In this document: positions 23,974 to 37,080 of the stretch, piece by piece
Position numbering within the stretch: the first letter of the stretch is position 1
How the letters are laid out: each line of letters begins with the position of its first letter
Origin: a virus
IMG/VR virus record: IMGVR_UViG_3300020220_003380
Coordinates: 1-41,973 of that record
Length of the DNA stretch: 41,973 nt
Strand: one strand, 5' to 3'
Translations under genes and position numbers: made by a program
The notes under the pieces: model-generated
What the model saw: only the letters and a program-made list of their open reading frames with translations
Told to the model about the DNA's origin: nothing
The model's database searches: none

Positions 23974-24015
23974 AATTGTTAAACACAATTTAATACTAGA
24001 GCCCTTTATGGGCTC
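23973..24015 (+). terminator. Two hairpins after the lysis cassette
   Basis: AAATTGT (23973-23979) pairs with ACAATTT (23985-23991) across a 5-nt loop. GAGCCC (23999-24004) pairs with GGGCTC (24010-24015) across TTTAT and is followed by ATTTCATTTAT, a broken T-rich tail. The GC-rich second hairpin is the stronger candidate terminator and separates the lysis operon from the dnaJ promoter directly downstream. Confidence 0.6.
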
Positions 24016-24027
24016 ATTTCATTTATA

Positions 24028-24056
24028 TTGACTACTTACTTGGGAGGCTATATAAT
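24028..24056 (+). promoter_or_regulatory. Sigma70-like promoter giving a leaderless dnaJ mRNA
   Basis: TTGACT (24028-24033), 17-nt spacer, TATAAT (24051-24056). The predicted start falls at 24063 plus or minus one, which is the A of the dnaJ ATG, so the transcript would have no leader. The nearest Shine-Dalgarno-like sequence, GGGAGG (24042-24047), lies inside the promoter spacer, 15 nt before the ATG, and would not be present in this RNA. Confidence 0.78.
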
Positions 24057-24062
24057 AGTATT

Positions 24063-24929
24063 ATGAGTCATTATGCAACTTTAGGGGTCACTGAAAATGC
24101 CGGCCCAGATGAAATCAAAAAGGCCTATCGTAAACTTGCCAATCAACATCATCCCGACAAAGGTGGAGACACCGATATATTTCAAAAAATTCAGGCAGCA
24201 TATGATATATTAGGTGATCATGACCGTAGAGCACAATACGATGCTGAACGTAGTGGTATGGGTGGTTTTAGATTTACTGTCAATGGACAAGATGTCAACG
24301 GTGGCATACCTCCAGGAATGGAAGAAATGCTCCGTAATTTTGGATTTGCATTTGGTTCAGGATTTGCAAACCACAGAGACCCTTTGGCACATTTTAGGCA
24401 ACCAAGAAAAAACAAAGATTTACAAATCGAACTGCTAATAAGTTTGGCAAGCACCCTTGAAGAGCAAACCAAGATAATCAATGTTAAAACAACAAATGGT
24501 GACACCTATCCGATTGAAGTTAAAATTCCTCGAGGAGTTAAACCAAGTAGCACAATAAAATATCCAAACTTGGGCGACAACTTTTTTTCTTCCTTGCCAC
24601 GAGGAGATTTGTATGTGCGTATTCAAATCGAAGCAAATACTGTGTTTGGCATTGACAATTTAGATTTAATTACAGAAGCACAAATTGATTGTGTAAGAGC
24701 TATGGTAGGAGACACCTTGATTGTTCATGGCCTAGATGGCAAAAGATTTGAATTATCTTTACCTGCCGGAACTCAACCAAACACACGATTCAGAATAGCT
24801 AATCAAGGTCTTTATGCAATGAATCAAAATGTTAGGGGATCTTTAATAGTTAATGTTAAAATAAACGTTCCAATAAATTTGTCACAACAACAAATAGATT
24901 CGCTTAAAGAATTATTCTACATTCAATAA
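24063..24929 (+). CDS. DnaJ-type co-chaperone (class B, no zinc fingers)
   Basis: 288 residues. The J domain is complete: YATLGVTENAGPDEIKKAYR, HPD at 30-32, then DIFQKIQAAYDILGD. A short Gly/Phe-rich linker (GMGGFRFTVNGQDVNGGIPP) follows and then two beta-barrel substrate-binding domains (KIINVKTTNGDTYPIEVKIP, LDGKRFELSLPAGTQPNTRF). The CXXCXGXG zinc region is missing, as in CbpA/type II proteins. It would stimulate host DnaK ATPase and direct it to selected substrates. The next gene, a ClpA unfoldase, follows 8 nt later, so they probably act together. Confidence 0.9.
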   Translation: MSHYATLGVTENAGPDEIKKAYRKLANQHHPDKGGDTDIFQKIQAAYDILGDHDRRAQYDAERSGMGGFRFTVNGQDVNGGIPPGMEEMLRNFGFAFGSGFANHRDPLAHFRQPRKNKDLQIELLISLASTLEEQTKIINVKTTNGDTYPIEVKIPRGVKPSSTIKYPNLGDNFFSSLPRGDLYVRIQIEANTVFGIDNLDLITEAQIDCVRAMVGDTLIVHGLDGKRFELSLPAGTQPNTRFRIANQGLYAMNQNVRGSLIVNVKINVPINLSQQQIDSLKELFYIQ

Positions 24930-24937
24930 ATATTTTT

Positions 24938-27232
24938 ATGCTACAAACCAACCCAGAAATTGATTATATAGTGGCTGAAGCAACACAATTGGCCAAAGAT
25001 TTAAGTCATGAATATGTAACTCTGGAGCATGTATTTTTATCAATGATAAGGTTTAATCCTTTCAAAGAATTGTTAACAGAGTTTGGTGCCGATACTGATG
25101 GATTAGATGCAGAGCTAGAATCTTATTTGCTCCAAGCTACAAATTTGATTGTTAGTGACTTTGAGCCAAAAAAAACACACACTCTCGAACGTGTCTTTAA
25201 TCGTGCGTTTACTCAGGTTTTGTTTAGTGCAAGAAAGCATATAGAGTTAATGGATTTGTTTCTCAGCATCCATGCTGAAAACAATAGCTATGCACACTAT
25301 TTTATGGTCAAGTATGGCCTCGATCGCGCGAAATTGGTTGAGGTGTATAATAAAACTTATAAATCTGAATCAAGTAAATCCCTGGCCAGCTCAGACCGTG
25401 CAGACAAGATTTTAGAACACTACTGTGACAATCTAAACACAGCAGCCAAAGAAGGTAAAATTGATCCAGTCATTGGTCGGGCGCAAGAAACCGCAGACAT
25501 AGTAGAAATACTGGCACGTAGGAACAAAAGCAATGTACTCATGGTAGGTGATCCCGGTGTAGGTAAAACAGCAATTGCAGAAGGTCTAGCATTGTCTATT
25601 ATTTCCAAAACAGTGCCGTTATATCTACAAGGCTACACTGTGTACAATTTAGATATTGGAAGCTTGTTAGCAGGCAGCAAGTATCGTGGTGATTTTGAAG
25701 AAAAAATACAAGAAATTATCTCGGCATTGAACACAAAAGGTAATGCAATTCTCTTTATAGACGAAGCACATCAAATGCGAGGTGCCGGAGCAGGAAGTCA
25801 AAGCAGTGTAGACTTCAGTAACATGATAAAGCCTGCATTAAGCAAAGGCAAGATAAAAGTAATTGCAAGTACAACATGGGAGGAGTACACGCAAAGTTTT
25901 GAAAAAGATCGCGCACTTATGCGTAGATTTCAACGTGTGACCATCGACGAACCCAGTGCAGAAACAACAAAAGAAATTCTACTTGGTTTAAGATTTAACT
26001 TTGAAAAGTTTCATGGCGGCACAATACTAGATGAAGCCATAGACGCCGCTGTGGAATTGAGTGTTAGATATCAGACTGACAAAAAACTACCAGACAAAGC
26101 TATTGATTTGATTGATGCATGTTGCGCTAAACATCGAATCAAAAATAACACATGGACTGTAACAAGAACTGATGTTGTTACAGCTATTAGTAGAATAACA
26201 AAAATACCAATTGATCAAATTGGAGACACTGCATCAAAAAGTGTAAAGGGCATTAGCAGTTTAGAAATGCTTATAAAAGATAAATTGTATGGTCAAGATA
26301 CTGCTGTAGAAAATGTTTTAGAAAAAATTTATGTAAGTAAAGCGGGTTTAAAGTCAATCAATAAACCAATTGGTAATTTTTTATTTTTAGGACCAACTGG
26401 CACAGGAAAAACTGAACTAGCAAAATTACTATCAGAGCACCTTGGTATGAAACTGCTTAGATATGACATGAGTGAGTATCAGGAACGACACACAGTGGCC
26501 AAATTGATAGGTGCACCTCCAGGATATGTAGGGTACGACGACGGTAATCTTGGTGGAGGATTATTGATTTCTGATATTGAAAAAAATCCAAACTGTATAA
26601 TTTTAATGGATGAGATAGAAAAAGCACACCCGGATGTAAGCAATATTTTATTGCAAATGATGGACGAGGGTTCAGTCACAAGCAGCAATGGTAAAAAAGC
26701 AGATTGCAAAAATGCAATTATTATACTAACATCTAATCTTGGTGCAGCAGATAACGAAAAAAACACTATTGGATTTACCACTGCATTAGAAAAGTCAGGC
26801 GAAGATGATCGTGCGGTCAAGGACTTTTTCAAACCTGAATTTAGAAATAGACTAGATGGCATAGTAAAATTTGTCAAACTAGATCAACTCAGCATGCGTA
26901 AAATTGTTAACAAGTGTATCAATGAACTCAATGATTTACTTCTTGACAAGCAATTGCGTGTTAGATTAACCGAACAGGCTGTAGATGAACTAATCACAAC
27001 TGGCTTTGATAGCAAAATGGGCGCAAGACCGTTGCAAAGAAAAATCAATGATTTGATCAAAGTGCCTTTAAGTAAAAAAATCTTGTTTGAAAACATCATG
27101 GCAGGTAATACGGTTATAGTTGATTATTGCCAGGACAAGTTTGTATTTCAAACTGCAGACACATTAACCTTTCAACATAGAATAGACGAAAATGGATACA
27201 TCGTTCTGGAAGAACCTATCACCCAGTATTGA
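24938..27232 (+). CDS. ClpA-like AAA+ unfoldase with ClpP-docking loop
   Basis: 764 residues, near E. coli ClpA (758). An N-terminal Clp repeat region (1-140) precedes two AAA+ domains: Walker A GDPGVGKT (204-211) and GPTGTGKT (485-492), Walker B ILFIDEAH and IILMDEIE, pore loops KYRG (248-251) and GYVG (529-532), arginine-finger region FRNRLD. There is no ClpB middle domain, so it is not a disaggregase of that type. The loop IGF (611-613) matches the IGL/IGF ClpP-docking motif, so it could feed substrates to host ClpP. AATAAATATT precedes it and may be a late-type box. Confidence 0.93.
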   Translation: MLQTNPEIDYIVAEATQLAKDLSHEYVTLEHVFLSMIRFNPFKELLTEFGADTDGLDAELESYLLQATNLIVSDFEPKKTHTLERVFNRAFTQVLFSARKHIELMDLFLSIHAENNSYAHYFMVKYGLDRAKLVEVYNKTYKSESSKSLASSDRADKILEHYCDNLNTAAKEGKIDPVIGRAQETADIVEILARRNKSNVLMVGDPGVGKTAIAEGLALSIISKTVPLYLQGYTVYNLDIGSLLAGSKYRGDFEEKIQEIISALNTKGNAILFIDEAHQMRGAGAGSQSSVDFSNMIKPALSKGKIKVIASTTWEEYTQSFEKDRALMRRFQRVTIDEPSAETTKEILLGLRFNFEKFHGGTILDEAIDAAVELSVRYQTDKKLPDKAIDLIDACCAKHRIKNNTWTVTRTDVVTAISRITKIPIDQIGDTASKSVKGISSLEMLIKDKLYGQDTAVENVLEKIYVSKAGLKSINKPIGNFLFLGPTGTGKTELAKLLSEHLGMKLLRYDMSEYQERHTVAKLIGAPPGYVGYDDGNLGGGLLISDIEKNPNCIILMDEIEKAHPDVSNILLQMMDEGSVTSSNGKKADCKNAIIILTSNLGAADNEKNTIGFTTALEKSGEDDRAVKDFFKPEFRNRLDGIVKFVKLDQLSMRKIVNKCINELNDLLLDKQLRVRLTEQAVDELITTGFDSKMGARPLQRKINDLIKVPLSKKILFENIMAGNTVIVDYCQDKFVFQTADTLTFQHRIDENGYIVLEEPITQY

Positions 27233-27914
27233 AATACAAGCATCAACAAAACAATTTTATAATCAATATTACTATAGATTAGACATCTATGCTCCTGGTT
27301 GTAAAAGTATAAGATGTGCAGATATTGCACTGGACATTAGTAAAAGGCGTGACTGGGTGCGAGATTATCGACGCCAAGGTTCTTGGCACAACAAACAATT
27401 GTTTAAGTATCTCAAAGAGGCGAATGTGGGGTTTTTGCATAGTCTAAGTAATCTTTATTATGAATATCCTGACGTAAAAATACGTACAGAGGAACCTAAA
27501 ATTTCTGTTTATGCTACAGATGAAACCATGATCAAATCTGTTGCAAAATCAATAGATCCCGATAACAGAGATAAAATAACATCAATAACTGGACCAGCCA
27601 ATGAAGAAATCAAGGCTAGATTAGAAAAACATATGGTACTGGTCAAAAAGCCTCCTAAATATCAATATAGAATTTGGTTTAAGGAAAAGCAATTTAGTTA
27701 TGAATCTCGGATTCAAATATTAAATTATCTTCAAAGTTTAGGGGATCTGGTAAGATTGACTGATCACACTCGTGAAAGTTTAACCAGACCACACGATTGG
27801 ATTTGGGGTGCATATTTTTACACTAACGATAAAAAAGTGGCCACGTTCATAACACTTATTAACCCAGATATTATTAGAGAAGTTTCTGAGTTCGTTTACT
27901 TGGATAATAAATAA
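27192..27914 (+). CDS. Conserved phage protein of unknown function
   Basis: 240 residues, beginning 41 nt inside the ClpA gene, so translation is probably coupled. The sequence (QFYNQYYYRLDIYAPGCKSI, then RDYRRQGSWHNKQLFKYLKE, YRIWFKEKQFSYESRIQILN) alternates beta strands and basic helices. The second half repeats a pattern of the first (residues 30-60 compared with 165-215), hinting at two related domains. FYNQY-type proteins are seen in other large aquatic phages without function. No motif for catalysis is visible. Confidence 0.6.
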   Translation: MDTSFWKNLSPSIEIQASTKQFYNQYYYRLDIYAPGCKSIRCADIALDISKRRDWVRDYRRQGSWHNKQLFKYLKEANVGFLHSLSNLYYEYPDVKIRTEEPKISVYATDETMIKSVAKSIDPDNRDKITSITGPANEEIKARLEKHMVLVKKPPKYQYRIWFKEKQFSYESRIQILNYLQSLGDLVRLTDHTRESLTRPHDWIWGAYFYTNDKKVATFITLINPDIIREVSEFVYLDNK

Positions 27915-28125: not shown

Positions 28126-29076
28126 ATGACCAAAAAAGTAATTGGAGAATCTGCATCTACACAGGCAGATGCAGTGGCAGCAATCAAGGCAGCAGTAGCA
28201 GCCAAGCAATCAGCAGCACCTGACCCGAAAGATGCAGTAGCGATGATTAAAGCTGCTGCTGCACAACAGGCTCAGCAACGTGAACAACAGCAACAAGGTG
28301 TTCCGTTTGACTTTACTAAATGCCATTTGCATATTGGCATGCCCTGTTATGGTGGGAATGTCAGCGAACCTACAATGACTAGTCTGTTGCGTTTTATTCT
28401 TATGGCGCAACAAGTTGGATTAAATTGGAGTCTTGACACCATGGTCAATGAAAGCTTGGTCACTAGAGCAAGAAACAACTTGATGGCTAAGATGATGACT
28501 AATGCGTCTGCTACACATTTTATGTTTATTGATGCTGACATTCGTTTCCAACCAGAAAGTATCTTGCAAATGATGGCTTGTGATAAAGATGTTATTGGCG
28601 GCCTATATCCTAAGAAAGCATTGCCAGTAAATTATGTTATCAATCTCAAGCGCGAAACAAAAGTACAAGGTGATATTTTCACTGTTGATACAATGGGCAC
28701 AGGTTTCTTGTTGTTTAAACGGCATGTATATGAAACACTGTGCAAAGCACACCCAGAAACCAAATATGTAGATGACGTTGGTCTTGGTAAACAATTTGAA
28801 CCCACAATGTACAGCATCTTTGATGTGGCCATTGATGAAAAAGGACACTATCTATCTGAAGATTGGCAGTTCTGCCGTAGATGGAGTGCATTAGGCGGCG
28901 AGATCTGGGCGCATGGCAAAGTGTTATTAAACCACATCGGACATTACGAATTTGTTGGAGATCTCAGCAAGATGCCACAATTTGCACAACCTGAAGGTGC
29001 AGCACCAGAACTGGATGCATCTGCGCCGGCTGCACTAGCTGATGCAATTAAAATGGCGCAAAAGGCACCAGCATAA
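28126..29076 (+). CDS. GT-A-fold glycosyltransferase
   Basis: 316 residues. An Ala/Gln-rich linker (1-60) precedes the catalytic domain: HIGMPCYGGNVSEPTMTSLL, RARNNLMAKMMTN, then the DxD motif FMFIDADIRF (D136-D138) and the acceptor-side SEDWQFCRRW with a conserved ED pair. This is a GT-A family member (GT2-like) of a type frequent in large aquatic phages. It would transfer a sugar from a nucleotide sugar to DNA, a virion protein or a host glycan; the substrate is unknown. The N-terminal linker with repeats of DAVAxIKAA suggests attachment to another component. Confidence 0.85.
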   Translation: MTKKVIGESASTQADAVAAIKAAVAAKQSAAPDPKDAVAMIKAAAAQQAQQREQQQQGVPFDFTKCHLHIGMPCYGGNVSEPTMTSLLRFILMAQQVGLNWSLDTMVNESLVTRARNNLMAKMMTNASATHFMFIDADIRFQPESILQMMACDKDVIGGLYPKKALPVNYVINLKRETKVQGDIFTVDTMGTGFLLFKRHVYETLCKAHPETKYVDDVGLGKQFEPTMYSIFDVAIDEKGHYLSEDWQFCRRWSALGGEIWAHGKVLLNHIGHYEFVGDLSKMPQFAQPEGAAPELDASAPAALADAIKMAQKAPA

Positions 29077-29595: not shown

Positions 29596-30816
29596 ATGCA
29601 TATTGCTGATCTTTTTGAATCGTATGTAGCTGAAGCTGGCCCGCAATTGGTTGTACTATACCCGGGCCGATTTCAACCTTTTCACCTCGGGCACAGAGAA
29701 GTATTTCAAAGCCTACAAAACAAGTTCGGGCGCGACAGCGTCTATATTGCAACTAGCAATAAAACAGAACTTCCTAAAAGCCCTTTTAATTTTTCAGACA
29801 AAACAGTATTCATGAACGCAGCTGGAGTACCCAGTGATCGTATTGTGGAAGTAACCAATCCTTACAAATTACCAGAACAGCAATTCAATCCTGCTAATAC
29901 AATTTTTATAGCAGCAGTCGGTACTCCGGATCGAGACCGCCTGCGCCCAGACAGCGTAAAGAAAGATGGCAATCCGGGTTATTTTAAAACGTTCAAAAGC
30001 TTGGACGAATGTACAACTGCTGACAAGCACGGGTATGTAATAATTGCAGACGAGCGTCAAAAAGTTATCTCCATAAACGGACAACAGGTAGATGTCAGTC
30101 ATGGCACAGCTGCACGAGCAGCATGGAATGCAGTTAGAGACACACCTAAATTACGTAGTGAATATTTGTTACAAATGTACGGTAGAGATGATGCTGAACT
30201 TGGTAGAATACTGGATAAAATACCACAAACTGTTACTGAGGATCAGGAAGCAGAACTTACTCCGCTTCAAAAACAAACCGGCAAATTAACTTACCAATTG
30301 TACAAACAAGACAAATACAATACTGGCAAATACCCACCTGGTCAAGACAATGTGATTGGTAATCAGGCGCCTTGGGATAAACCAACAGAGAAGATGCCCG
30401 GTGACTTTAAAGGTCATGTACATGACACTGAATTAGGCAAAAGAATCAAAAGCGATCCTGCTACAGCCAGAATGGACGATCCTATGCTGAAGTGGGGCGG
30501 TGAAAATTATGGTCTGGAGTCGGAAGTTAAAAAACGCAGTCGCGATCGTTACTATGAAACTGCTGGTGTAGGTGTTATTGCAAATAAAAAACAGGCCCGC
30601 GATCCAAGATATAGTCACAGTCTGACCAATGATATAAGTCCCGGTGAAGTAAACAGACAACTTAAAAAAATGCATTTAGTCGACAGTGTAGAACAATTGA
30701 AAGAACAAATAGCCACATTGAAAGAAAAATGGAGCGCCAAATACAAACGCAGCATCAACTGCAATCGTCCTCGAGGCTTTAGCCAGCGAGCTCATTGCCA
30801 AGGTAGAAAAAAATAA
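29596..30816 (+). CDS. Nucleotidyltransferase-domain protein with capsid-targeting-like N-terminus
   Basis: 406 residues. Residues 1-13 (MHIADLFESYVAE) end in a (V/I/L)xE site like T4 capsid-targeting peptides. The catalytic domain starts at about 18 with VVLYPGRFQPFHLGHREV; HLGH (30-33) is the signature of the HIGH-type cytidylyl/adenylyltransferase superfamily (NadM, NMNAT). The usual ISGTxIR is replaced by SHGTAARAAW. The C-terminal half is linker with conserved modules and ends KWSAKYKRSINCNRPRGFSQ RAHCQGRKK. If packaged, the enzyme would enter the cell with the DNA. Its exact substrate is not known. Confidence 0.75.
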   Translation: MHIADLFESYVAEAGPQLVVLYPGRFQPFHLGHREVFQSLQNKFGRDSVYIATSNKTELPKSPFNFSDKTVFMNAAGVPSDRIVEVTNPYKLPEQQFNPANTIFIAAVGTPDRDRLRPDSVKKDGNPGYFKTFKSLDECTTADKHGYVIIADERQKVISINGQQVDVSHGTAARAAWNAVRDTPKLRSEYLLQMYGRDDAELGRILDKIPQTVTEDQEAELTPLQKQTGKLTYQLYKQDKYNTGKYPPGQDNVIGNQAPWDKPTEKMPGDFKGHVHDTELGKRIKSDPATARMDDPMLKWGGENYGLESEVKKRSRDRYYETAGVGVIANKKQARDPRYSHSLTNDISPGEVNRQLKKMHLVDSVEQLKEQIATLKEKWSAKYKRSINCNRPRGFSQRAHCQGRKK

Positions 30817-36390: not shown

Positions 36391-37080
36391 ATGTCATTTC
36401 TAGTAGCTAACACACCACCTGTACACTGTTATATCAGACGAGAATTTCTCTATGATTTTGAAAAGGGACACGGCGAATATGAGCCGTGTATATGGGTATC
36501 TATCAAAAGCATAAGAGGACAAGCTTTTAGAATTGAAGCCTACTTGCCCAACTACGGAGCACTGTACGATAAATTACCACTGCATGCGTTTGTATCACGC
36601 ACAAACCTTCTTGATACTGCAAGTTTTTTAAATCTAGATACCTTGCAAATCTGGGATTGCTTTGATTATGATATGACTGTGATACAAAAAGCATTTTTAA
36701 GAAATTTAAGTTGTAAATTTTATGCCAAAGATAAAAACATGTACTCAGGCAATTACATGTTTACTGTGGATCATGCTCATCCTAATCACAACATCATAGA
36801 CACTGGATACAGTGAATGGCCAGAAGACCATAAGAGTTTTAATTTCATAGAACTAGACAGCGGTCAATATGCAGCACAACCAAACAATAGATGCTTGTTT
36901 TTTGATGCTGCCAGCAACCCACGCGACATGAAGTTTCCAGATTTTAAAGTATGCACTAAAAAATATGTAGTAGAACAAAATCCCAAATGGCGTTTGGGCG
37001 ACACAGACACCGTAATGTATGAAAAAAGTTCCGATACGGTTAACGACGAACATTACGGTAAAAGCAAACTGTTTAAATAA
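36391..37080 (+). CDS. Conserved phage protein of unknown function
   Basis: 229 residues. The sequence (VANTPPVHCYIRREFLYDFE, then HGEYEPCIWVSIKSIRGQAF, LQIWDCFDYDMTVIQKAFLR, NIIDTGYSEWPEDHKSFNFI ELDSGQYAAQPNNR) is a large conserved family in uncultured T4-like phages, with no characterised member I know. Beta-rich with no catalytic motif. It is not led by a capsid-targeting-like peptide, so it may be an accessory or virion surface protein. Confidence 0.7.
   Translation: MSFLVANTPPVHCYIRREFLYDFEKGHGEYEPCIWVSIKSIRGQAFRIEAYLPNYGALYDKLPLHAFVSRTNLLDTASFLNLDTLQIWDCFDYDMTVIQKAFLRNLSCKFYAKDKNMYSGNYMFTVDHAHPNHNIIDTGYSEWPEDHKSFNFIELDSGQYAAQPNNRCLFFDAASNPRDMKFPDFKVCTKKYVVEQNPKWRLGDTDTVMYEKSSDTVNDEHYGKSKLFK

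Follow-up and report, generated by a model that had tools for sequence, protein, structure and literature searches.

Which peptidase, if any, is served by an Hsp100 unfoldase that a phage encodes directly behind a J-protein is the question raised by the locus described here. ClpA genes are common in jumbo phages, and the literature, in the parts available, yielded no experimental test of the partner or the use of their products. An earlier note on this DNA had proposed a phage unfoldase that recruits host ClpP. Comparison with related viral contigs leads us to favour another partner: dnaJ–clpA is probably, though by no means certainly, a two-gene jumbo-phage operon whose ClpA would dock most likely on a phage-encoded ClpP, giving a phage ClpAP to which DnaJ feeds substrates. 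What appears to be new, judging from sequence comparison, is better evidence for the docking partner of ClpA and a promoter feature. The data name a candidate partner (phage ClpP), a candidate adaptor (phage ClpS), a conserved operon mate (DnaJ) and a predicted transcription start site.

The locus and its products

The window, by which we mean the whole stretch of DNA analysed, is a 41,973-base IMG/VR virus record. It encodes a DNA polymerase, a clamp loader of the T4 type and an endolysin, and shows a weak match to an Rz-like spanin. On this evidence it probably covers one part of the genome of a jumbo phage that infects a Gram-negative host; both the host and the environment of this phage are presumptive. 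The coordinates of dnaJ and clpA were exact as first reported, the two genes being separated by 8 nt, and no Shine-Dalgarno sequence is visible in this gap. The features of the locus are as follows.

23999..24015, plus strand: terminator-like stem-loop 5′ of dnaJ
24028..24056, plus strand: sigma70-type promoter, TTGACT-17-TATAAT, with the end of the −10 box 6 nt 5′ of the dnaJ ATG; leaderless transcript predicted
24063..24929, plus strand: dnaJ, 288 aa; J domain with HPD at residues 30–32, C-terminal domains, no zinc finger
24938..27232, plus strand: clpA, 764 aa; Hsp100 unfoldase with N-domain, D1 and D2
25547..25570, plus strand: D1 Walker A, ClpA residues 204–211
26390..26413, plus strand: D2 Walker A, ClpA residues 485–492
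26768..26776, plus strand: IGF docking tripeptide, ClpA residues 611–613; loop 605–619 disordered in the model
27192..27914, plus strand: 240-aa gene overlapping the 3′ end of clpA by 41 nt; syntenic neighbour

Further downstream, the window holds a glycosyltransferase-like gene (28126–29076) and a cytidylyltransferase-like gene (29596–30816), each present in 78 of the 80 loci analysed (the best 80 of 478 relatives), and a ferredoxin-family gene (phrog_3704; 36391–37080).

DnaJ is matched by the Pfam models for the J domain (E 1.5e-20) and DnaJ_C (E 5.6e-29). CxxC motifs are absent from all 80 homologues among the best 80 of 478 relatives, and hence there is no zinc-finger domain; with its HPD-bearing J domain and C-terminal domains the protein falls into class B (type II) of the J-proteins. 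The HPD motif is present in 78/80 aligned rows (window included; best 80 of 478 relatives), and the remaining two (L063, L079) are gaps that are explained by DnaJ frames far shorter than the others and near a contig end.

The best PHROG for the unfoldase is phrog_4871, ‘ATP-dependent protease’ (E 2.1e-241, residues 5–739), and profiles identify Clp_N, AAA, AAA_lid_9, AAA_2 and ClpB_D2-small domains. The closest PDB chain is E. coli ClpA (1ksf; E 4.5e-177), which aligns end to end over residues 5–734. As first described, both ATPase sites are intact, with Walker B motifs at 271–276 and 554–559 completing the Walker A motifs listed above, and the pore loops are present (YRG 249–251, GYVG 529–532). 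The best NCBIfam model, TIGR02639, scores 821.8 bits, under its equivalog cut-off of 993.15, and the protein is therefore ‘ClpA-like’ rather than a certified ClpA. In a structure model (pLDDT 78, pTM 0.52) the D1–D2 portion superposes on E. coli ClpA of the ClpAP complex (7uiy chain D) with Z 31.2 and rmsd 4.0 over 574 aligned residues at 45% identity. There is no M-domain, nor any long D1–D2 insertion relative to 1ksf, which lowers a ClpB/Hsp104-type disaggregase as the main role.

The phage protein thus shares with E. coli ClpA its domain order, ATPase motifs, loop position and D1–D2 fold, and differs in that IGF replaces IGL, in the pairing of its gene with dnaJ (E. coli clpA presumably sits beside clpS), and in its N-domain, where 35/139 residues are identical as against 103/190 in D1 and 103/198 in D2. 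The claim that the N-domain differs from that of host ClpA accordingly stands against E. coli ClpA only (25% identical). Seven E. coli N-domain residues (H22, E23, E28, T81, R86, R90, R131), several of which we take to be ClpS contacts, are kept in 89–100% of phage ClpAs; a literature search found nothing to confirm them as such contacts. Given that the divergent N-domain keeps this conserved patch and that ClpS co-occurs with ClpA, a usual adaptor-type input and a new choice of substrates are equally likely.

The reading of residues 611–613 as a ClpP-docking motif is borne out by alignment with IGL 617–619 of E. coli ClpA. In ClpAP and ClpXP, the IGL/IGF tripeptide docks in clefts of ClpP (PMC7707817, PMC9663308). 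The IGF is exact in 76/81 proteins (the window and the best 80 of 478 relatives), the variants being IGM (2), MGF, IGI and IGL, and in 63/68 after clustering of that set at 95%. Column entropies are 0.10, 0 and 0.36 bits for the three residues, whereas the other positions of the loop (603–624) average 1.02 bits, the flanks drifting freely; a chance occurrence is ruled out by this conservation of the tripeptide while its flanks vary. Residues 605–619 have pLDDT <50 in the model, which fits a flexible docking loop.

Conservation of the pair and a predicted promoter at the dnaJ start

Among 478 confirmed ClpA relatives in viral contigs, the best 80 were analysed. A DnaJ homologue lies directly 5′ of clpA in 79 of these 80 loci, the lone exception (L027) being a contig that ends 88 nt before clpA; the gap ranges from −14 to 82 nt and is 8 nt in 25/79. 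The gene at 27192–27914, whose product was considered as an adaptor, has a homologue in 74/80 of the same loci. Its product has a confident predicted fold (pLDDT 93) and falls into no Pfam or PHROG family, single homologues matching three PHROGs at E 0.0065–0.0091 only. A fold search returned PDB rows at TM of about 0.2, the good matches being uncharacterised phage proteins only; the fold matches include, weakly, one protein of phage Atu_ph07. An anti-defence annotation of the locus was rejected: PADLOC gave no match for DnaJ or for the downstream product, and partial AAA+ matches only for ClpA.

A scan of bacterial genome contigs for ClpA, whose patterns seem biased to ClpC-like proteins and most of whose rows are Firmicutes-type, gave best rows 50–54% identical on MAG contigs that are possibly phage, and no origin was drawn from it. 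Two loci of this kind, L213 (PBPT01000016.1) and L212, in Neomarinimicrobiota and Pacearchaeota MAGs, encode ClpAs 50–52% identical to that of the window and may be misbinned phage.

To score promoters, dnaJ starts were re-called from the distance to HPD, blind to promoters, with two loci skipped that lacked an HPD; the set comprised 78 loci, window included (from the best 80 of 478 relatives). A sigma70-type match of at least 10/12 was found within 75 nt 5′ of dnaJ in 63/78 loci, as compared with 31 of 1058 starts of other ORFs from these loci, the loci being related to one another, as are the control starts. The −10 box lies 5–8 nt from the dnaJ start in 53/78 loci (exactly 6 nt in 40 of the 63 with a match), a spacing shared by 4/1058 controls. 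Terminators with perfect arms occur up to 100 nt 5′ of dnaJ in 41/78 loci versus 40/1057 other ORF starts, and in 24 loci the −35 box sits inside the hairpin loop of the terminator. The clpP starts in the relatives examined differ in having purine-rich leaders. This placement of the promoter at the dnaJ ATG predicts that a leaderless dnaJ–clpA mRNA would be made by a housekeeping-type polymerase, presumably that of the host acting on a near-consensus sequence. The feature was not found described in the jumbo-phage Clp literature, in the parts available and with searches in which leaderless architecture was not itself a term.

Phage ClpP and the partner of ClpA

ClpP was sought with PF00574 in 27 larger ClpA records drawn from the best 80 of 478 relatives. 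It was found in 13 of them, with ClpS in 14/27 and DnaK in 3/27; in records of at least 280 kb selected through ClpA, both ClpP and ClpS are present in 6/6, and some also carry ClpX and DnaK. (G001 and G007 seem to represent the same phage.) When 50 more records were searched (the window and 49 of the 53 remaining loci among the best 80 of 478), they yielded a single ClpP, in a 69.6-kb record of the window’s own subclade (G032, which is locus L007); its ClpA is 79% identical to that of the window, and its clpP lies 45.8 kb upstream of clpA. With selection through ClpP instead, ClpA is present in 13/32 contigs of at least 50 kb and in 7/7 of those of at least 119 kb.

In 13 records with a linear distance, clpP and clpA share a strand and clpP is placed 39–88 kb upstream; a fourteenth ClpP record (G003) appears circularly permuted and is outside this count. 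Because of this distance, most of the records scored as misses do not contain the relevant stretch. Upstream of the pair the window extends for only 25 kb, and neither ClpP nor ClpS was seen in its 42 kb; a ClpP of the window phage itself is one that we infer. Four misses speak against it: there is no ClpP in 143 kb upstream of clpA in G012, where ClpS is present, in 88 kb upstream in G022 and G023, or within 62 kb in G017, a 79% relative.

The phage ClpPs are 54–65% identical to PDB 8r05 in 13 records and keep the catalytic serine, histidine and aspartate. In 8/13 ClpP records of the larger-record set, ClpA is the sole AAA_2 protein at E of at most 1e-10; ClpX-like proteins occur in 5/20 records examined, each with an IGF motif. 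Hsp20 adjoins ClpS in the four of four loci tested. The type of ClpP varies independently of ClpA, given that G002 and G006 have ClpAs 95% identical and ClpPs whose C-terminal halves differ. The clpP products of these two records (L082 and L091) are 98% identical over residues 1–103 and 47% beyond, and the C-terminal half, which includes the handle region and, in the MIHRV type, 10 extra residues after the catalytic His, looks like a swapped cassette. The RV motif was seen in all 80 ClpP loci retrieved, the query being first the MIHRV type. In three other loci (L102, L103, L104) a hairpin-like inverted repeat, clear in the first two, precedes the dnaK ribosome-binding site and is possibly regulatory.

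This conservation gives good support to the pairing of a J-protein with an unfoldase that docks on ClpP, and to that extent the first proposal survives; host ClpP, however, is no longer the preferred partner, relatives encoding bacterial-type ClpPs with intact catalytic residues. Docking mainly on host ClpP, with host proteolysis redirected, would be compatible with an IGF that fits the canonical ClpP cleft and with the misses in the window, G012, G022 and G023, and the identity of phage ClpP to 8r05 makes cross-docking or mixed rings plausible. The presence of phage ClpP in every ClpA-selected record of at least 280 kb and in one near relative of the window means that recruitment is not needed, however, and we regard this reading as unlikely; that host regulators or defence proteins are the targets is conjectural.

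In the phage ClpAP reading, ClpA would form a two-ring AAA+ hexamer whose IGF loops dock on a ClpP that is most likely the product of another locus of that phage. The resulting protease could accept substrates delivered by ClpS, while DnaJ together with host, or occasionally phage, DnaK would prepare or deliver unfolded substrates; the time of action and the identity of those substrates are equally presumptive. Against it stand the ClpA score below the NCBIfam cut-off, the four records with no ClpP in the available upstream sequence, the untied ClpP types, and the drift of the tripeptide in RaK2-like phages that do have an S14-family protein. A bolder scheme, which we consider speculative and unlikely to hold as a whole, is that the phages supply a Clp protease of their own, complete in itself and insulated in part (ClpA, ClpP, ClpS and sometimes ClpX, with DnaJ, Hsp20 and sometimes DnaK). 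Host polymerase would transcribe dnaJ–clpA immediately into a leaderless mRNA, the extended-handle type of ClpP would stop ring mixing with host ClpP, and N-degron and chaperone-linked proteolysis would be rewritten.

Isolate phages and published systems

Twelve isolate jumbo phages with ClpA, which are related and do not count as independent events, all carry an S14-family protein. DnaJ is found in only three (Phosso, Atu_ph07, PA5oct), directly 5′ of clpA in Atu_ph07 and PA5oct and one gene away in Phosso. The same three are those with an exact IGF, and their ClpPs are 53–66% identical to 8r05, as against 33–47% in the other nine: SCTP-2 combines an IGY loop with a 47% ClpP, and the remaining eight have ClpPs at 33–40% and loops VGF, IGV (2), MNM, MGM (2), LGM and VGM. 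The RaK2-like phages, with drifted loops (MGM, VGM, MNM, IGV), have no DnaJ and a divergent ClpP, which could have co-evolved with the divergent ClpA loops. This series, from IGF, DnaJ and canonical ClpP to drifted loops without DnaJ, offers a comparison for asking under which circumstances an unfoldase retains or gives up its peptidase.

The isolates also bear on a ClpP-independent role, in which ClpA would act with DnaJ and DnaK in the manner of ClpB to refold or remodel phage proteins, for example in virion assembly. The pairing with DnaJ recalls the ClpB–DnaK system, in PA5oct, XaC1, Munch and Kaldavass the neighbours of clpA, adjacent or close by, include genes with structural or tail annotations, and two papers propose assembly or aggregate removal (PMC7824862, PMC6102473). 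The lack of an M-domain, the strong conservation of IGF, the co-occurrence of ClpP and ClpS, and a housekeeping-type promoter of the pair’s own, rather than merely a transcript shared with upstream genes, all argue against this role, which we think quite improbable. A general stress buffer without a particular target, whose sole effect is that the infected cell stays alive, as proposed for Atu_ph07 (PMC6102473), would suit relatives that also carry Hsp20 and sometimes DnaK, but it is very unlikely to be the whole role, strict operon and loop conservation suggesting a defined task, albeit one compatible with buffering.

The window pair is a further case of a known kind, since ClpA, ClpP, ClpS and DnaJ have been published before for a jumbo phage, Atu_ph07. 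That phage encodes ClpA, ClpP, ClpS, ClpX, ClpB and DnaJ, which were suggested to help in assembly, in replication or in clearing aggregates, and as in the window its ClpA (gp292) adjoins DnaJ (gp293) and keeps IGF (PMC6102473). Its ClpA is only about 40% identical, however, its dnaJ–clpA gap is 73 nt, and it has a ClpB, whereas the window’s relatives have no second Hsp100 of ClpB size at E of at most 1e-10. The Pseudomonas phage PA5oct group (Wroclawvirus) resembles the window in its IGF and in a dnaJ 9 nt before clpA, carries its own ClpP and ClpS, and differs in a ClpA 41% identical; a literature search found no paper on the PA5oct Clp set, and a phrase search for phage ClpP/ClpA gave 0 matches. 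In a jumbo-phage survey, ClpA is proposed as a translocase or assembly aid and phage ClpP and ClpS as anti-host tools (PMC7824862). The Moraphages, aquatic jumbo phages with genomes up to 307 kb and predicted hosts mostly among the Bacteroidota, have ClpA in shared groups (occurrence 24, Table 2) and in some cases DnaJ, DnaK and Hsp20, the available text making no mention of ClpP (PMC12619734). Rki of phage RB43 is, like the window DnaJ, a phage J-protein; it acts on host DnaK and stabilises sigma32, and no ClpA partner is mentioned in the part of the paper available (PMC3486835).

Some records filed as phage (Acinetobacter phage MD-2021a, Listeria phage LM and a human fecal Bacteriophage sp.) gave ClpA, ClpP or DnaJ matches that resemble bacterial chromosome contigs; in MD-2021a, clpS lies beside clpA.
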